Shown here: positions 1 to 11,860 of the stretch, in pieces
Position numbering within the stretch: the stretch's first letter is position 1
Layout of the letters: each line of letters begins with the position of its first letter
DNA from: Candidatus Methylomirabilota bacterium
Lineage (GTDB): Bacteria; Methylomirabilota; Methylomirabilia; Methylomirabilales; JACPAU01
NCBI GenBank assembly: GCA_016180705.1
Contig: JACPAU010000225.1
Span: 1 to 11,860 of the forward strand
Direction of reading: 5' to 3'
DNA length: 11,860 nt
Program-made: the position numbers and the translations under genes
The notes under the pieces: model-generated
What the model was told of the DNA's origin: nothing
Seen by the model: only the letters and a program-made list of their open reading frames with translations
Databases searched by the model: none

Positions 1-1017
1 GCGGGCGATCTCGACCCCCTGCTGCTGGAGGATCTCCACGATCTTCTGATCGCTGAGGGGCTTCCCCTGGTCCTCCTGGGTCAGCAGCTTCCGGACGATG
101 TCCTTCACCGTCAGGGAGGAGACGGTCGCCCCGCCGTCCGTGGCCGGGACCCCGCGGTGGAAAAAGTACTTCAGCTCGAACAGGCCCTGCGGCGTGTGCA
201 CGTACTTGTTGGTGGTGACCCGGCTCACCGTGGACTCGTGCATGTTGATGTCCTCGGCCACCTCCTTCAGGGTCAGGGGCCGCATGGTGCTGATCCCCCG
301 CTCCAGGAACTCCCGCTGGAACTTCACGATGCTCTCGGTGACCTTGTAGAGGGTGCGCTGGCGCTGCTCGATGCTCCGGATGAGCCAGAGGGCCGAGCGC
401 ATCTTCCCCTCCACATACTCGCGGGTCTCCTTCGAGTTCTGGCTCCGACGCGAGAGGATGGCCCGGTAGTACCCGCTGACCCGGAGCCGGGGGAGGCCGT
501 CCTCGTTCAGCACCACCACGAACCGGTCGTCCAGTTTCACGATGTAGACGTCGGGGGTGATGTAGCGGGGCTCCTCGGTGCTGAAGGTGCGCCCGGGCTT
601 GGGCTCGAGCGAGCCGATGAGCTCCAGGGCCGTCTGCACGTCCCGCGGCGGGACCTTCAGCCGGTCCGCGAGGCGCGCGACGTTCCGGTGCTCGAGCTCG
701 GCCAGGTGGTCGGTGATCAGGCACCGGGCCAGCCGCGCCTCCACCCCCAGGGCGTCCAGCTGCAGGAGCAGGCACTCCCGGAGGTCCCGGGCGGCCACCC
801 CGAGGGGGTCCAGGGATTGGACGAGCCGGAGCGCCCGCTCCGGCAGCGTCGGGTCGCTCGGGGGGGCTTCGCTCAACTGTTCGAGGGGGACGGTCAGGTA
901 GCCGTTCTCGTCCAGGTTGCCGATGATGAGGTTGGCCCAGTGCTGGAGGTCGGGATCCGAGGTGGAGAGGTAGAGCTGGAAGGTCAGGTGGTCGGCCAGC
1001 GAGCGGGGGCGGGTCAT
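1..1017 (-). CDS. rpoN: RNA polymerase sigma-54 factor, core and HTH part (3' end outside window)
   Basis: This is the main body of sigma-54, which binds core RNA polymerase and -24/-12 promoters and needs AAA+ activators to open them. The frame is uninterrupted from the TAG at 1045-1047 to the window edge. It carries the core-binding domain (NLIIGNLDENGYL, then SLDPLGVAARDLRECL) and the helix-turn-helix block HESTVSRVTTNKYVHTP followed by FELKYFF, all diagnostic of RpoN. The window ends within the segment that precedes the RpoN box, so the box itself is not seen. The start given is the first in-frame ATG after the TAG. It has GAGGA four bases upstream, so independent re-initiation is possible. 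The unbroken original gene would start at 1368. It sits last in lptC-lptA-lptB-rpoN, a very common order. Identity is near certain; whether this half is made alone or by readthrough is unknown. Confidence 0.9.
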   Translation of the reverse strand, partial: MTRPRSLADHLTFQLYLSTSDPDLQHWANLIIGNLDENGYLTVPLEQLSEAPPSDPTLPERALRLVQSLDPLGVAARDLRECLLLQLDALGVEARLARCLITDHLAELEHRNVARLADRLKVPPRDVQTALELIGSLEPKPGRTFSTEEPRYITPDVYIVKLDDRFVVVLNEDGLPRLRVSGYYRAILSRRSQNSKETREYVEGKMRSALWLIRSIEQRQRTLYKVTESIVKFQREFLERGISTMRPLTLKEVAEDINMHESTVSRVTTNKYVHTPQGLFELKYFFHRGVPATDGGATVSSLTVKDIVRKLLTQEDQGKPLSDQKIVEILQQQGVEIAR

Positions 1018-1044
1018 CGTGTCCTCGGGGGCGGCCCGCTCCAG

Positions 1045-1368
1045 CTACTCCCGGGGGAACTCCCGCCGGTAATCCGAGGCATCCTGCAGGTACGCCTCCC
1101 AGTCGGTCTCGGAGAGCCGATCCTCGGATTCCGGCGGGGCCTCGGTCTGCCCCTCGGCCGCGGCCTCCGTCTTGGCTGCCGGCTCCTCCGCCTCCTCGGC
1201 CGCCTCGACCAGCTCCTCCTCCGGCAACGGGTTCTCCTCCAGCTCCTGGCGGACCGTCTGGATCAGCTCCATCCGGTTGAGCTGGAGCAGCCCAATCGCC
1301 TGCTGCAGCGATTGGGTCATGATCATCCGCTGCGTCTGGCGGAGGCTGAGTTTCGCTTCGAGCGCCAT
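1045..1368 (-). CDS. rpoN: Sigma-54 N-terminal region I fragment, ended by in-frame TAG
   Basis: This encodes 107 residues. Residues 1-50 are sigma-54 region I, the glutamine/leucine-rich activator-responsive segment (LSLRQTQRMIMTQSLQQAIGL, LLQLNRMELIQ, then ELEENPLPEEE). An acidic, low-complexity region II follows, ending in DWEAYLQDASDYRREFPRE. The TAG at 1045-1047 is in the same frame as the rest of rpoN (1-1044), so this is a nonsense codon and not a frameshift. The ATG at 1366-1368 lies 13 bases after lptB with GGGGGA just upstream. TAG closes several neighbouring genes (lptB, rhomboid, histidine phosphatase, HEPN), so genome-wide reassignment is unlikely. The codon could be a one-base change of CAG or GAG, a sequencing or assembly error, a readthrough site, or a true split of the factor into two chains. 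Confidence 0.85.
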   Translation of the reverse strand: MALEAKLSLRQTQRMIMTQSLQQAIGLLQLNRMELIQTVRQELEENPLPEEELVEAAEEAEEPAAKTEAAAEGQTEAPPESEDRLSETDWEAYLQDASDYRREFPRE

Positions 1369-1381
1369 TGTCCCCCGCGCG

Positions 1382-2170
1382 CTACAGGCGGAACCGCTCC
1401 CCCAGGTAGAGGGCGCGCGCCCGCTCGTCGGCGGCCAGCTCCCGGGCGGTCCCGCTGATCAGGATCTCCCCCCGGTGAATGATATCGGCCCGGTCCACGA
1501 TCTGCAGCGTCTCCCGCACGTTGTGGTCCGTGATCAGGACCCCGATCCCCTTCGCCTTCAGTTGGGCGATGATCCCCTGGATCTCCTGCACCGCGATGGG
1601 ATCGATCCCGGCGAAGGGCTCGTCCATCAGGATGCAGGCTGGGTCGGTGGCCAGGCACCGGCTGATCTCGGCCCGCCGCCGCTCCCCGCCCGAGAGCGTG
1701 TAGGCCTTCCGGCCGGCCAAATGCGCGATCCCCAGTTCCGCGAGGAGGGCCGCCGCCCGCTCCCGCCGCGCCGCGGCCGGGAGGGGAAGCCCCTCCAGGA
1801 TCGCCAGGACATTCTCCTCCACCGTCAACTTCCGGAAGATCGAGGGCTCCTGGGGAAGGAAGCCCAGCCCCCGCCGCGCCCGCTGGTAGACCGGCAGGGC
1901 CGTCACCTCCTCGCCGTTCAGGAACACCTGCCCCCGGTCCGGCTGCAGGAGCCCCAGGGCCATGTAGAAGGTGGTGGTCTTCCCGGCCCCGTTGGGCCCC
2001 AGCAGCCCCACCACCTCCCCCGCGCCGACCGTGAGGCTCACCCCCGCCACCGCGGTCCGGCCCCGGAAGGCCTTGACCAGGTCCACGGTTCGGAGAATGG
2101 CGCCGGCGCCGGGCCCCGCCTCAGGGTCTCGGCGCGCCTCCCGGGTCGCGCCTGGGGTAGATGATGGCAT
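1382..2170 (-). CDS. lptB: LPS export ABC transporter ATP-binding protein LptB
   Basis: LptB is the cytoplasmic ATPase dimer that, with LptF and LptG (not in this window), extracts LPS from the inner membrane and pushes it along the LptC-LptA bridge. The protein has the full ABC set: Walker A GPNGAGKT at 58-65, Q-loop Gln107 in LPQEPSIF, signature LSGGE at 159-163, Walker B CILMDEP at 179-185 and switch His216 in TDHN. Gln-Glu-Pro-Ser-Ile-Phe after the Q-loop is typical of LptB. The 262-residue model has about 22 more N-terminal residues than E. coli LptB and overlaps lptA by 50 bases. The region before residue 24 (PGATREARRDPEAGP) looks non-conserved, so the true start may be further in, although no ATG lies there. 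It stops with TAG, 13 bases before rpoN. Confidence 0.95.
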   Translation of the reverse strand: MPSSTPGATREARRDPEAGPGAGAILRTVDLVKAFRGRTAVAGVSLTVGAGEVVGLLGPNGAGKTTTFYMALGLLQPDRGQVFLNGEEVTALPVYQRARRGLGFLPQEPSIFRKLTVEENVLAILEGLPLPAAARRERAAALLAELGIAHLAGRKAYTLSGGERRRAEISRCLATDPACILMDEPFAGIDPIAVQEIQGIIAQLKAKGIGVLITDHNVRETLQIVDRADIIHRGEILISGTARELAADERARALYLGERFRL

Positions 2171-2639
2171 GGACCCGCGCGTTCCCTTCGCCCTCCACCA
2201 CGTGGCGGTCCTCCCGGAGGTAGAGGGTCATGGTCGTCCCGGTGACGACGTTCTCCTCCTGCCAGGCCCGGGCGTTGCCCTCCAGCAGGACCTTCTCCTC
2301 CCGGGCGAAGTAGGTGGCGGCGTCCGCCGTGGCCTCCCGCCCGCCCTGCTCCGCGATCCGCACGCGGCCGGTCGCCCGGACGGTCCGCACCTCCTGCATC
2401 GCCTCGTCGAACGTGAACTCCATCCGGTCAGCCAGGATGGTGAGGGCGCTGTCCCGGGCGACCACGTTGCCGGCGTAGGTGGCGGTGTGGGCCTTCCGGT
2501 CCACCTCGAGCCGGTCGGCGGTGATGGTGATGGCGCCTGCCTTCGGCGCCCGACCGCCGCCCGCCACGGTCGGCGGGGCCTCGGCCGCCGCGGGGGCGGC
2601 CGCCGCGAGGAGCACGGCGACGAGGAGCGCGCCCCTCAC
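2121..2639 (-). CDS. lptA: LPS transport periplasmic protein LptA (OstA-like)
   Basis: LptA forms the periplasmic beta-jellyroll bridge that carries LPS from LptC to LptD. The 172-residue product begins with a signal peptide (hydrophobic LLVAVLLAAAAPAAA, likely cleaved after Ala19). An OstA/LptA domain follows at about 36-160, with the repeating strand pattern ITITADRLEVDRKAHTATYAGNV and MEFTFDEAMQEVRTVRATG. It starts at GTG (2637-2639), four bases into the end of lptC (GTGA overlap), so the two are translationally coupled. The C-terminus overlaps the modelled start of lptB. Size and order match the family. Identity rests on domain pattern and context, since LptA sequences diverge strongly. 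Confidence 0.92.
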   Translation of the reverse strand: MRGALLVAVLLAAAAPAAAEAPPTVAGGGRAPKAGAITITADRLEVDRKAHTATYAGNVVARDSALTILADRMEFTFDEAMQEVRTVRATGRVRIAEQGGREATADAATYFAREEKVLLEGNARAWQEENVVTGTTMTLYLREDRHVVEGEGNARVHAIIYPRRDPGGAPRP

Positions 2640-7659: not shown

Positions 7660-8112
7660 CTACGGCAACGCGATCTGCGGGTGCTCCTCCCGGATGCGCT
7701 GGAGCACCCGCTGCACGAACTCCTCCGCGGCCTGGAGGGCAGCCTCACCCTCGTAGCCCGAGATGGGCCGGTCGGCCGCATCGAGGAACTGCTGGCTCTT
7801 CCGGCGCATCCGCTCCAACTGGTTCAGGAGGGGAGCCACGTCGGCAGGCAGCAGGCCGGCGGCGACCTGCAGAACCGTCTTCACCTGCTCCCGCCCCTTG
7901 GGGCGCAGCCCCGCCGCCAGCGCCAGAGCGCGGGCTGCCCGGACCATCCCCTGGGCCGCCATCGTGTAGGCCCACTCCCGGTCCACGAGCAGCGTCGCCT
8001 TGGCGGTCTGCAGGTCCTTGCTGGCGCGGCGGACGAGTGCCAGCACCTGCTTCTCGCTGGGCGCCGCCTCGTCAAGCAGCCCCCGGCTCTTGAGCTCGTC
8101 ATAGGGCTTCAT
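7660..8112 (-). CDS. HEPN domain protein, partner of MNT-like gene; active-site motif not seen
   Basis: This is a 150-residue, all-helical HEPN protein. The pattern DLQTAKATLLVDREWAYTMAAQ, then MVRAARALALAAGLRPKG, then RMRRKSQQFLDAADRP and AALQAAEEFVQRVL matches HEPN proteins paired with wHTH-MNT genes. In active relatives the RMRRK stretch continues with Arg-Asn/His and a downstream Tyr, the RX4-6H-type RNase centre. Here that region reads RRKSQQFLD, with no His and no Tyr. The RNase or toxin function may therefore be lost. Its ATG lies inside the upstream MNT gene (14-base overlap), typical of coupled toxin-antitoxin-like pairs. It ends in TAG, 70 bases before the lysine-rich micro-ORFs. 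The family call is good; the functional state is inferred from motif absence. Confidence 0.75.
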   Translation of the reverse strand: MKPYDELKSRGLLDEAAPSEKQVLALVRRASKDLQTAKATLLVDREWAYTMAAQGMVRAARALALAAGLRPKGREQVKTVLQVAAGLLPADVAPLLNQLERMRRKSQQFLDAADRPISGYEGEAALQAAEEFVQRVLQRIREEHPQIALP

Positions 8113-8668
8113 CCGAGCCGGCCACCACCACCCGATCGCCCTGGAGGACCTCGGTCAGGAAGGGGTCCCCTTCCTCCCGCCGTCGCACGAACTCCGCGCG
8201 GTCGAAGGCCAGGAGGTTGATCTCCCGCCCGAGCCGCTGCTCCAGGTCCGCCACCGCCTGGTTGAGGGCAGGCATCTCCGGCGAGCCGACGACGATCAGG
8301 TCCAGGGCCCCGGCATCAGTCGCCAGCGCGTCGGCCTTCGCGCCGTAGAGGAACGCCACCACGATTCCTTTGACCCGTCGCAGGGCCGCCCCGACGGTCC
8401 CGGGGACCGCGCGGGTCTTGTCCACGATGGCCTTCAGCTCGGAGTACACGGGGGACCGCGGGCTCGCGCTGTAGTAGCGGAGGTTCCCGGCCTTCACGCT
8501 CTGGAGGATCCCGGCCTTCTCCAAGTTGTCCAGCTCCCGCTTGATTCCCGAGATGTCCCGCTTCAGTTGCCGCGCCAGCTCGCGGACGTAGAACCGCTCC
8601 TCCGGGCGGCCGAGCAAGAGCACCAGGAGGTCCACGCGCGTTTGGGATGAGAACAGCCGCCGGAGCAT
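8099..8668 (-). CDS. Winged-helix regulator fused to degenerate MNT nucleotidyltransferase domain
   Basis: The 189-residue product starts with a winged helix at about 1-70 (LFSSQTRVDLLVLLL, ERFYVRELARQLKRDISGIK, then LEKAGILQSVKAGNLRYY). A minimal nucleotidyltransferase (MNT) fold follows at about 95-185, ending in LGREINLLAF and GDPFLTEVL. Active MNTs show GSxA and, about ten residues on, DxD. Here these read YGAKA and GALDLIVVG, so Ser becomes Ala and the first Asp becomes Ala. The catalytic site thus appears lost. The ATG at 8666-8668 is chosen over a TTG at 8710, because the latter lies inside the -10/-35 spacer of the likely promoter (8699-8728). The 14-base overlap with the HEPN gene marks a two-gene unit. 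The remaining role is probably DNA binding and/or HEPN binding. Confidence 0.78.
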   Translation of the reverse strand: MLRRLFSSQTRVDLLVLLLGRPEERFYVRELARQLKRDISGIKRELDNLEKAGILQSVKAGNLRYYSASPRSPVYSELKAIVDKTRAVPGTVGAALRRVKGIVVAFLYGAKADALATDAGALDLIVVGSPEMPALNQAVADLEQRLGREINLLAFDRAEFVRRREEGDPFLTEVLQGDRVVVAGSDEAL

Positions 8669-8672
8669 CCAA

Positions 8673-8690
8673 TCATGCCTTTCATGCCTT
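8673..8690. repeat. Perfect tandem 9-mer in the 5' leader of the wHTH-MNT gene
   Basis: TCATGCCTT occurs twice in direct succession (minus strand AAGGCATGA twice), between the predicted -10 and the ATG at 8668. It sits where the transcript would begin, so it could be an autorepression site for the encoded winged-helix protein. The second copy also supplies AAAGG as a weak ribosome site. Confidence 0.4.
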
Positions 8691-8698
8691 CGATGATG

Positions 8699-8728
8699 CG
8701 AATACAACAATCGTTATTTCTTTGTCAA
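8699..8728 (-). promoter_or_regulatory. Sigma-70-type promoter of the wHTH-MNT/HEPN operon
   Basis: The minus strand has a consensus -35 TTGACA (8723-8728), an 18-base AT-rich spacer and TATTCG (8699-8704) as the -10. An A-rich tract (TTAAAAAAAA) lies just upstream and may act as an UP element. Transcription would start about 25 bases before the ATG at 8668. This is the most AT-rich stretch in the window. Confidence 0.65.
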
Positions 8729-9547: not shown

Positions 9548-10237
9548 CTACAACCGGAAGAGGCGGATGGGGACCGACCGCCGCTTGAAGAAGGGGATCA
9601 GCGCCATGCCGGCGGCGAAGCCGCCGATGTGGGCGAACCAGGCCACCCCGCCTCCCTGGAAGTTGAAGGTGACGAGACCGTTCGCGACCTGCACCAGGAT
9701 CCAGAACCCGAGAACGATGAGGGCAGGGATCTCGATCAGCCGCCAGTACCAGAACACGGCGATGAAGGTGAGCACCCGCGCGTGCGGGTACAGGAGCAGG
9801 TACGCGCCGAGCACCCCGGAGACCGCGCCGCTCGCCCCGACCATGGGGATGGGGGAGGTCGGGCTCACCCAGACCTGCGCGAAGGCCGCCGCGAGCCCGC
9901 TCAGGAGGTAGAAGCCGACGAACCGCGACGGCCCCATGGCGTCCTCCACGTTGTTCCCGAAGATCCACAGGTAGAGCATGTTCCCGGCCACGTGGAAGAG
10001 CCCGCCGTGGACGAACATGGACGTGACCACGGTCATCTCCAGCGGAAAGGGACGCGGGACGTGCGCCACGCCCGAGGTCAGTTCCCGCGGGATCAGCCCG
10101 TACTGGAAAATGATCCGCTGCGCGGACTCGGGAAGCAGCAGAAACTGGTAGAGGAACACGGCGACGTTGGCGACGATGAGGGCGACGGTGACGACCGGGA
10201 AGCGTCGGGTCCGGATGTTGTCGCGAAGCGGGATCAT
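9548..10237 (-). CDS. Rhomboid family intramembrane serine protease
   Basis: Rhomboids cut transmembrane helices inside the bilayer. The 229-residue protein has six or seven hydrophobic segments and the full catalytic set: His82 and Asn86 in FHVAGNMLYLWIFG (oxyanion hole), nucleophile Ser136 in GASGAVSG, and His203 in FAHIGGFAAG. The N-terminus MIPLRDNIRTRRFP and the long loop after helix 1 (about residues 37-68) are typical of the bacterial subgroup beginning with 'IPLRD'. Its promoter is probably the leftward one at 10314-10343, giving a leader of about 70 bases. The histidine phosphatase follows four bases after its TAG. The natural substrate is unknown. Confidence 0.92.
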   Translation of the reverse strand: MIPLRDNIRTRRFPVVTVALIVANVAVFLYQFLLLPESAQRIIFQYGLIPRELTSGVAHVPRPFPLEMTVVTSMFVHGGLFHVAGNMLYLWIFGNNVEDAMGPSRFVGFYLLSGLAAAFAQVWVSPTSPIPMVGASGAVSGVLGAYLLLYPHARVLTFIAVFWYWRLIEIPALIVLGFWILVQVANGLVTFNFQGGGVAWFAHIGGFAAGMALIPFFKRRSVPIRLFRL

Positions 10238-10516: not shown

Positions 10517-10551
10517 AATCCCGCGGGCTGACCCCGGAGGGAGGGAGCGGG

Positions 10552-11860
10552 GTGGCGCCCAACCGCGGCATCCTCACCGTCGATCCCGCCGGACTGCTGC
10601 CGGCAGCCGTGCGGACGCGTCTCACCGCGGAGGGCTTCCGGGTGGTCCCGGTCGGGCGCAACCCCGCGCTCCTGACCCCCCGGCAGATGAAAGGAGTCGT
10701 CGCGGTCCTCGCCTGCGACCGCACCGCCGACCGGGAAGTCCGTCGCCTGGTGGCGAGCGCCCTTGCCCTCGAGCCCCACCTCCCCGTCCTCCTCTGCTGC
10801 CCGGGCGGCGAGGTGGACCCGCACTTCGCGCCCGATCCCCGGCACCGGCCCGTCGGGCTCCCGCTCCCGCCCGACGCCGACGCGATCCTCGGGGCCCTCC
10901 GGCAGGCGCTCGCGGAGGCGCCGGCGAGGATCCGCCCTCCGCAGGCGCTCCCAACTGCCGGCCCCCTCATCCCCCTCGAGGTCTTCCACGAGGTGGGGAA
11001 GGCCCTGACCTCCACGCTCCAGCTCTCGGAGGTCCTCAACCTCATCGCGGACACCACGAGCCGCTTCGTTCAGTGCGAGGCCTGGTCCCTCCTCCTCCTG
11101 GACGAGCGCCGGCAGGAGCTGCGCTTCGAGATCGCCACCGGGCCGCAGGGGCCGCAGGTGAAGCAGTTCCGCCTGAAGCCCGGGGAGGGTCTCGCAGGGT
11201 GGGTGGCGCGGGAAGGGCGGGCCTGCCTGGTGGAGAACGCCGGGGCCGATCCTCGCTTCGCCCCGCACGTGGACGGCGCCACCGGGTTCGCCACCCGGAC
11301 CATCCTCTGCGTCCCGCTGACCAGCAAGGGGAAGGTCCTGGGGGTGATCGAACTCCTGAACAAGCAGGGCGGCGGCGCCTTCGACGACCGGGACCTCACG
11401 ATGGTGAGCATCCTGGCCGACTACGCCGCCATCGCCATCGAGAACGCCCGCCTCTACCAGCGGGCGGAGGAGTTGGCCGTCACCGACGACGTGACCGGCA
11501 TCCACAACTCCCGCTACTTCCACCAGCTTCTCGAGCGGGAGCTGCAGCGGGCCCGCCGCTACGCGCGCCCGCTCTCGGTCCTCTTCATCGACCTGGACCA
11601 GTTCAAGGAGGTCAACGACACCCACGGCCATCAGCGGGGAAGCCAAGTTCTGCGCGAGGTGGCCCAGCTCCTGAAGGCCTCCATCCGCTCCGTGGACCTG
11701 ATCGCCCGCTACGGGGGCGACGAGTTCATCGTGGTCCTCCCCGATACCGACGCCGCCACCGCCGCCCAGCTGGGCGAGCGGCTCCGCGCCACGGTCGCCC
11801 GGACCGAGTTCTTGGCGCCGGAGGGCCTGCGGCTCCGCCTGACCGCCTCCTTCGGGGTGG
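10552..11860 (+). CDS. Pseudo-receiver-GAF-GGDEF dinucleotide cyclase, Hypr-type specificity residue (3' end outside window)
   Basis: This reads as 436 residues to the window edge. Residues 5-122 resemble a receiver domain but lack a clear phospho-acceptor and the conserved Lys (GLPLPPD in place of KPF). A GAF sensor domain spans about 146-303, and a GGDEF cyclase domain begins near 310 (TDDVTGIHNSRYF). The active loop RYGGDEF (388-392) and metal site FIDLDQFK (Asp347) are intact, and an RSVD inhibitory site (379-382) lies five residues before GGDEF. Asn355 of the guanine pocket is kept, but the motif GHxxGD reads GHQRGS, so Ser364 replaces the guanine-binding Asp (PleD Asp344). Known Hypr GGDEF enzymes that make 3',3'-cGAMP carry Ser or Thr here. 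The start is GTG with GGAGGGAGGG upstream. Cyclase identity is firm; the cGAMP product is inference. Confidence 0.93.
   Translation, partial: MAPNRGILTVDPAGLLPAAVRTRLTAEGFRVVPVGRNPALLTPRQMKGVVAVLACDRTADREVRRLVASALALEPHLPVLLCCPGGEVDPHFAPDPRHRPVGLPLPPDADAILGALRQALAEAPARIRPPQALPTAGPLIPLEVFHEVGKALTSTLQLSEVLNLIADTTSRFVQCEAWSLLLLDERRQELRFEIATGPQGPQVKQFRLKPGEGLAGWVAREGRACLVENAGADPRFAPHVDGATGFATRTILCVPLTSKGKVLGVIELLNKQGGGAFDDRDLTMVSILADYAAIAIENARLYQRAEELAVTDDVTGIHNSRYFHQLLERELQRARRYARPLSVLFIDLDQFKEVNDTHGHQRGSQVLREVAQLLKASIRSVDLIARYGGDEFIVVLPDTDAATAAQLGERLRATVARTEFLAPEGLRLRLTASFGV

Follow-up and report, generated by a model that had tools for sequence, protein, structure and literature searches.

Hypr enzymes, represented by GacA of Geobacter, account for 0.17% of all GGDEF domains according to the accessible part of PMC9140294. 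Their sequence rules are set out in the accessible part of PMC6456294. A cross-dimer Arg, which stacks on the base, is present in 94% of predicted diguanylate cyclases; Hypr enzymes with Tyr, Ser, Ala or Gln at this place produce mainly cGAMP, and two with Arg produce more c-di-GMP. Under the Goldilocks model of the same text, Ser at the base-specificity position is functional only alongside GGDEF, not GGEEF. The canonical enzyme GSU3350 remained a pure diguanylate cyclase after its D-to-S mutation (PMC6456294), and Ser alone is therefore no proof of cGAMP synthesis. Published mutant evidence also exists for Bd0367 S214D (accessible part of PMC9140294).

The gene described here lies at the end of an 11,860-nucleotide window, which is the entire contig C219 of a draft genome of a Candidatus Methylomirabilota bacterium (1.65 Mb, 64% complete). 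Its residues, family, phylogeny and domain order are presented as observed, and from these we infer its product, ligand and receptor. With a probability of about 77%, the gene is read from its sequence as encoding a GacA-type Hypr GGDEF cyclase that is predicted to convert GTP and ATP mainly to 3',3'-cGAMP. A preliminary description had proposed a candidate Hypr cyclase, and this was supported by the best PDB match (6D9M), the GGDEF motif, Ser320 and the clustering of Ser-type domains on trees. The enzyme class is known; the lineage and the possible way of switching on appear to be new. A literature search, with the species list of the 2016 founding Hypr paper outside its range, returned no report of cGAMP signalling for Methylomirabilota/NC10. 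The enzyme predicts cGAMP signalling in NC10/Methylomirabilota.

Gene and domain organization

The encoded protein comprises a degenerate receiver, a GAF domain and a GGDEF domain (Table 1). The window lacks its final ~48 residues, and the C-terminus was visible in the relatives P0001 (484 aa) and P0002 (485 aa), both of which shared 94% identity with the query across all 436 residues. The named homologues P0003 and P0004 (Candidatus Methylomirabilis sp., candidate division NC10) showed 79% identity, which points to NC10/Methylomirabilota as the source lineage. From an AlphaFold2 prediction for P0001 (mean pLDDT 85.1, pTM 0.47), only fold matches and secondary structure were taken; its domain packing was regarded as unreliable. 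Foldseek placed 6D9M 19th by E-value, behind multi-domain diguanylate cyclases; thus, the fold search did not single out Hypr enzymes.

Table 1. Coordinates of the features of the candidate Hypr GGDEF gene, its conserved neighbour and the aptamers of sister species (window positions unless a locus is named).
Feature	Position	Strand	Basis or remark
Candidate ribosome-binding site GGAGGG	10540..10545	+	Read directly; its first base 12 bases before GTG 10552
Candidate Hypr GGDEF gene, first 436 codons	10552..11860	+	GTG start; open at contig end
Receiver-like N-terminal domain, degenerate	10564..10917	+	Strand/helix order in AlphaFold2 model of P0001
GAF domain, residues 157-297	11020..11442	+	Pfam GAF/GAF_2; 123 bits to 5w10_A; Foldseek match 5w10
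NK-x5-F-x3-D motif (N270, K271, F277, D281)	11359..11394	+	Sequence
GGDEF catalytic domain, residues 309-436, incomplete	11476..11860	+	PF00990, 6.1e-38
Ser320 (TCC), cross-dimer position (GacA Tyr304; PleD Arg)	11509..11511	+	Alignment; role from accessible part of PMC6456294
FIDLD metal-site motif, residues 345-349	11584..11598	+	Sequence
Asn355 (AAC), base contact (GacA Asn339)	11614..11616	+	Sequence, 265-row alignment; accessible part of PMC6456294
Ser364 (AGC), base-specificity residue (GacA Ser348, PleD Asp344)	11641..11643	+	Sequence, phmmer, 265-row alignment
RxxD inhibitory site (I-site), R379-S-V-D382	11686..11697	+	Sequence
GGDEF motif, residues 388-392, third letter Asp rather than Glu	11713..11727	+	Sequence
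Divergent rhomboid-family gene, conserved neighbour	9548..10237	-	Pfam; synteny in L113, L114, L115
GEMM-type aptamers of sister species G016/G017	L111 1027-1107; L112 797-877	-	Look c-di-GMP-type

Specificity residues and phylogeny

Ser364 was located nine residues after Asn355, within NDTHGHQRGSQ. In phmmer pairwise alignments it was paired with Ser in 6D9M, a Geobacter Hypr domain, and with the Asp in GHDIGDE of PleD, and the specificity column of a 265-row alignment held Ser in the query, Ser in 6D9M and Asp in PleD. The earlier placement of Ser364 in the PleD Asp344 column was thus upheld against both PleD and GacA. Among 54 PDB sequences, the top phmmer match was 6D9M (128.8 bits), and PleD scored 111.2 bits. 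Ser occupied this column in 120/120 homologues (the best 120 of 5,407 matches), and at least two base changes are required to turn GAC or GAT into AGC. These two observations ruled out a single-base error and indicated that Ser364 is an old, kept trait. The FIDLD, GGDEF and RxxD motifs, which had also been claimed to be intact, were confirmed in the sequence. Asn355 was kept as the preliminary description had it, but its codon (11614-11616) is situated just to the left of the range 11620..11660 given there.

A second hallmark, absent from the preliminary description, was found at the cross-dimer place, where Ser320 replaces the canonical Arg; this residue was non-Arg in all of the 120 homologues (best 120 of 5,407 matches). 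The domain combines Ser at the PleD Asp344 column, GGDEF instead of GGEEF, and Ser320 in place of the cross-dimer Arg. These features were compared in 265 GGDEF domains, which consisted of homologues, named-genome loci, NC10 loci and two PDB segments (267 were found, and 2 identical rows were dropped). In this set, which was assembled together with the query and does not amount to an unbiased survey, the third letter of the motif was Asp in 158 of the 159 Ser rows, G in the remaining row and Glu in none, and GGEEF occurred in 34 of the 102 Asp rows. Within the same 265 domains, Arg was present at the cross-dimer place in 71/102 Asp rows vs. 15/159 Ser rows. Four of the 265 rows (L037, L064, L070, and L071) had Asn at the specificity column and an intact GGDEF motif; their source records belonged to Vicinamibacterales, Acidobacteriota, Omnitrophota, and Thiohalocapsa.

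The phylogenetic trees were built without the three trait columns. On the FastTree phylogeny of 265 rows, the Ser label cost 2 changes, compared with a shuffled mean of 82.7. On the IQ-TREE phylogeny of 88 rows selected from the 265, all 55 Ser rows fell on one side of a branch, which had support of 67/85 and was present in 64% of 200 bootstrap trees, in a sample gathered with the query. The query belonged to a starred subgroup of 14 Ser rows, apart from another starred subgroup of 6 that included GmGacA. Three Bdellovibrionales rows (L048, L060, and L072), with Gln at the cross-dimer place, grouped with GmGacA. A single origin of the Ser enzymes is quite conceivable, but its support is modest and falls short of firm demonstration.

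One alternative is that the protein is an ordinary diguanylate cyclase that tolerates Ser364, with c-di-GMP as its cellular product. The behavior of the GSU3350 mutant gives this explanation a precedent, but the Hypr class is favored by the absence of Arg at 320, the second hallmark, and by the way in which the natural Ser rows group together, and we consider an ordinary cyclase unlikely.

As a Hypr cyclase, the enzyme would act as a homodimer that binds one purine NTP per half-site. Ser364, replacing Asp, would contact the Watson-Crick face of either guanine or adenine, and the loss of the stacking Arg (Ser320) would remove the guanine bias. From GTP and ATP, the predicted main product is 3',3'-cGAMP, accompanied by smaller amounts of c-di-GMP and c-di-AMP, and product inhibition through the I-site is possible.

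Paralogues, neighbourhood and distribution

A second Ser-type GGDEF protein was encoded in the same genome (L004/L119; contig C267, about 1317-2219, minus strand). It had 300 residues with receiver-like and GGDEF domains, the sequence NDAYGHLCGS, a GGDEF motif and the canonical cross-dimer Arg, and the gene after it read like dxr by eye. Since it keeps this Arg, it should, by analogy with the published rule (accessible part of PMC6456294), lean to c-di-GMP. The Ser/Arg type was read in at least 14 of 95 genomes, all from the same order; this count consisted of L004 and 14 of 20 fetched stretches (13 genomes), five others of which carried Asp and one no such motif. The two Ser-type enzymes of this genome, which differ in having Ser or Arg as the cross-dimer residue, offer a natural test case for the position that is proposed to determine the cGAMP : c-di-GMP ratio. 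Three other proteins of this genome (L001, L002, and L003) were Asp/GGEEF cyclases, and a sixth, weak GGDEF match (L006) had no readable motif.

At a threshold of 1e-60, matches to the query were detected in 4 of 95 phylum genomes (G000, G016, G017, and G019) and in 2 of the 53 of good quality. All four genomes shared conserved neighbours in the form of the rhomboid gene, a gene matching HVO_A0114, a HEPN gene, an ornithine-cyclodeaminase-like gene and an aldehyde dehydrogenase gene, which were placed by tblastn; HVO_A0114 is a Pfam match, and by eye the gene resembled a nucleotidyltransferase. The window also contains a histidine-phosphatase gene, with counterparts detected in G016 and G017 but not in the stretch from G019. 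On the side of the locus opposite to these neighbours, there was an AMP-dependent ligase-like frame in G017 and G015 (by eye) and a spermine-synthase-domain gene in G019. An operon partner was sought around the gene, and none stood out.

The HVO_A0114-match gene overlapped the HEPN gene (window 7660-8710, minus strand), and the two were kept together in G015, G016, G017, and G019; they may form an MNT-HEPN type pair. At window 1-1368 (minus strand), a sigma-54-like gene (by eye) was apparently split in two frames near 1017-1045.

Genome G015, which belongs to the same genus (95% complete, 9% contamination), kept the rhomboid, phosphatase, HVO_A0114 and HEPN genes to one side of the locus, and the genes that follow it to the other. 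A tblastn search with P0001 gave no match on its 8.4-kb contig (C360). The flanks that align to G017 were ~55 bases apart in G015 and ~1,560 apart in G017, and the gene-less junction lay around 5608-5729 of contig C360 (L181). Loss of the gene in G015 is the simpler reading, because the gene also occupies this locus in G019, which belongs to a different family. The gene is therefore dispensable, as would suit a dead or decaying domain that serves merely as a c-di-GMP sensor. Ser with GGEEF would indeed be inactive under the Goldilocks model (accessible part of PMC6456294), but this combination is absent here. Against such decay, the query keeps Asn355 as well as GGDEF, FIDLD and the I-site, the three motifs for which it had earlier been called not a dead domain, and the five GGDEF letters were invariant in 39 aligned relatives (39 of the best 120 of 5,407 matches). 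A dead domain is thus very improbable.

Input, output and relation to described systems

In the AlphaFold2 prediction for P0001, strands and helices alternate through the N-terminal 120 residues in a receiver-like order. Pfam gave no receiver match in P0001, P0010, and P0041, and PF00072 was found in one (P0039) of the 120 homologues (best 120 of 5,407 matches). The phospho-acceptor and Lys columns were chosen by eye from the modelled secondary structure; the strand-3 end, the expected phospho-acceptor place, was variable over 39 aligned rows, and the seven closest rows (P0001-P0007) all lacked Lys where strand 5 ends. The receiver looks unable to be phosphorylated, and the GAF domain would therefore be the likely input, plausibly for a cyclic nucleotide. 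In GacA, the phospho-acceptor is mutable without loss of cGAMP (accessible part of PMC6456294).

The closest solved relative of the GAF domain was the cAMP-bound GAF of Lcd1 (5W10, 123 bits), followed by PDE10A, an adenylate cyclase and PDE2A. Foldseek also returned 5W10, at 39% identity. The NK-x5-F-x3-D motif, which we take to be that of cyclic-nucleotide-type GAF domains, was present in the form N[K/R]..F..D in 37 of 39 aligned relatives. It was found in 82 of the 119 homologues with enough upstream sequence (of the best 120 of 5,407 matches, chosen by whole-protein similarity) vs. 2 of 93 Asp-type domains, and in 5 of 21 Ser rows among the named-genome loci. Owing to this choice of homologues and to the 5 of 21 rows, the motif was not considered to prove that the domain binds cyclic nucleotides. 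Genes for class III nucleotide cyclases were detected in 5/5 genomes searched, with 4 matches in G000. Judged from the sequence, a cyclic-nucleotide input is plausible, and the earlier proposal of control through the GAF domain was reasonable, as this domain most resembles cyclic-nucleotide-binding GAFs. If true, this lead would link signalling by cyclic mononucleotides with that by cGAMP within a single protein.

On the output side, no GEMM aptamer was found in the window at the Rfam threshold or in its genome (64% complete), in a genome search that matched no control genome either. With the same model, GEMM matches were obtained in 50 of 95 phylum genomes under strict filters, with up to 40 candidates scored per genome; G019 (94% complete) gave none under these filters. 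Genomes G016 and G017 had one aptamer each; both carried G at the specificity place and matched the Rfam subfamily c-di-GMP-I-GGC (RF03167). L112, which lacks AAACC, was judged by its cmscan alignment. The aptamer was present in both of these enzyme-bearing sister species and none was found in the enzyme-less G015, a pattern of just two points; no aptamer was found in the enzyme-bearing G000 and G019.

A cGAMP-type GEMM aptamer has A at the specificity place. A remark on G20A is made in the accessible part of PMC7288161. The specificity base was read in 20 returned loci (L091-L110) among the phylum-wide matches, and a motif script found 19 of them, L101 being the exception, to be GEMM-like, and in each of the 19 the base three positions ahead of AAACC was G. 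These 19 aptamers were taken as c-di-GMP-type, and a cGAMP-type riboswitch may occur elsewhere in the phylum, beyond the loci read. The GEMM-Ib riboswitch suggested in the preliminary description did not emerge, with none in the same genome, the G-type in G016 and G017, and none in G019. GEMM riboswitches were rejected as the output within the genomes searched and the loci read. A cGAMP receptor would probably be of a kind other than the GEMM-Ib riboswitch already described.

PilZ matches numbered 11-33 in four genomes of the genus of the window and 0 in G019. With the enzyme present, no PilZ or GEMM match and 94% completeness, G019 is a useful place to search for a cGAMP receptor. HD-GYP genes, possible removers of the messenger, were found in 5/5 genomes searched, with 4-8 matches each.

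The c-di-GMP-type riboswitches of the enzyme-bearing sister genomes G016 and G017 and the plentiful PilZ domains of the genus (22 matches in G000) would fit an ordinary diguanylate cyclase, but G019 has the enzyme, yet neither a GEMM nor a PilZ match. The coexistence of the enzyme with such riboswitches and PilZ proteins in G016 and G017 would also suit a dual output, in which cGAMP and c-di-GMP both matter, the latter read by riboswitches and PilZ proteins and the former by something else. Bd0367 provides the precedent (accessible parts of PMC9140294 and PMC9302825). However, c-di-GMP could come from elsewhere, since the genome of the window has three Asp/GGEEF cyclases of its own. A dual output, which is a special case within the Hypr reading, is considered a tentative possibility.

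For the Hypr cyclase itself, a fuller scheme can be drawn as a one-protein relay, in which cAMP (or cGMP) on the Lcd1-like GAF domain would switch on Hypr cGAMP synthesis in Methylomirabilota, with a receptor other than GEMM-Ib; a second Hypr-like enzyme, of the Ser/Arg type and with a bias for c-di-GMP, would work alongside it. Taken as a whole, this scheme is doubtful.

PleD shares the fold and the catalytic motifs with the query, and differs at three points: its specificity column has Asp, its cross-dimer residue is Arg and its motif reads GGEEF. Lcd1, a Leptospira GAF-GGDEF protein compared here by its GAF domain, provides the closest solved GAF and shares the N[K/R]-x5-F-x3-D motif; however, it is listed as a cAMP-activated diguanylate cyclase that makes c-di-GMP (accessible part of PMC8846402), unlike the product proposed for the query. 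Bd0367 (DgcA) of Bdellovibrio resembles the query by description, with a Ser specificity residue and a conserved I-site (accessible part of PMC9140294). GacA (GSU1658 / Gmet_1914; PDB 5VS9 / 6D9M), compared by its GGDEF segment, shares Ser at the specificity column, GGDEF, the Asn contact and the RxxD I-site. Both are non-Arg at the cross-dimer place, with Tyr in GacA and Ser in the query. The PDB molecule name gives GacA the order receiver, GAF and GGDEF, as in the query, although the accessible part of PMC6456294 names only receiver and GGDEF. The query differs from GacA in its degenerate receiver, its separate Ser subgroup, the lack of a GEMM-Ib match and its NC10 phylum.
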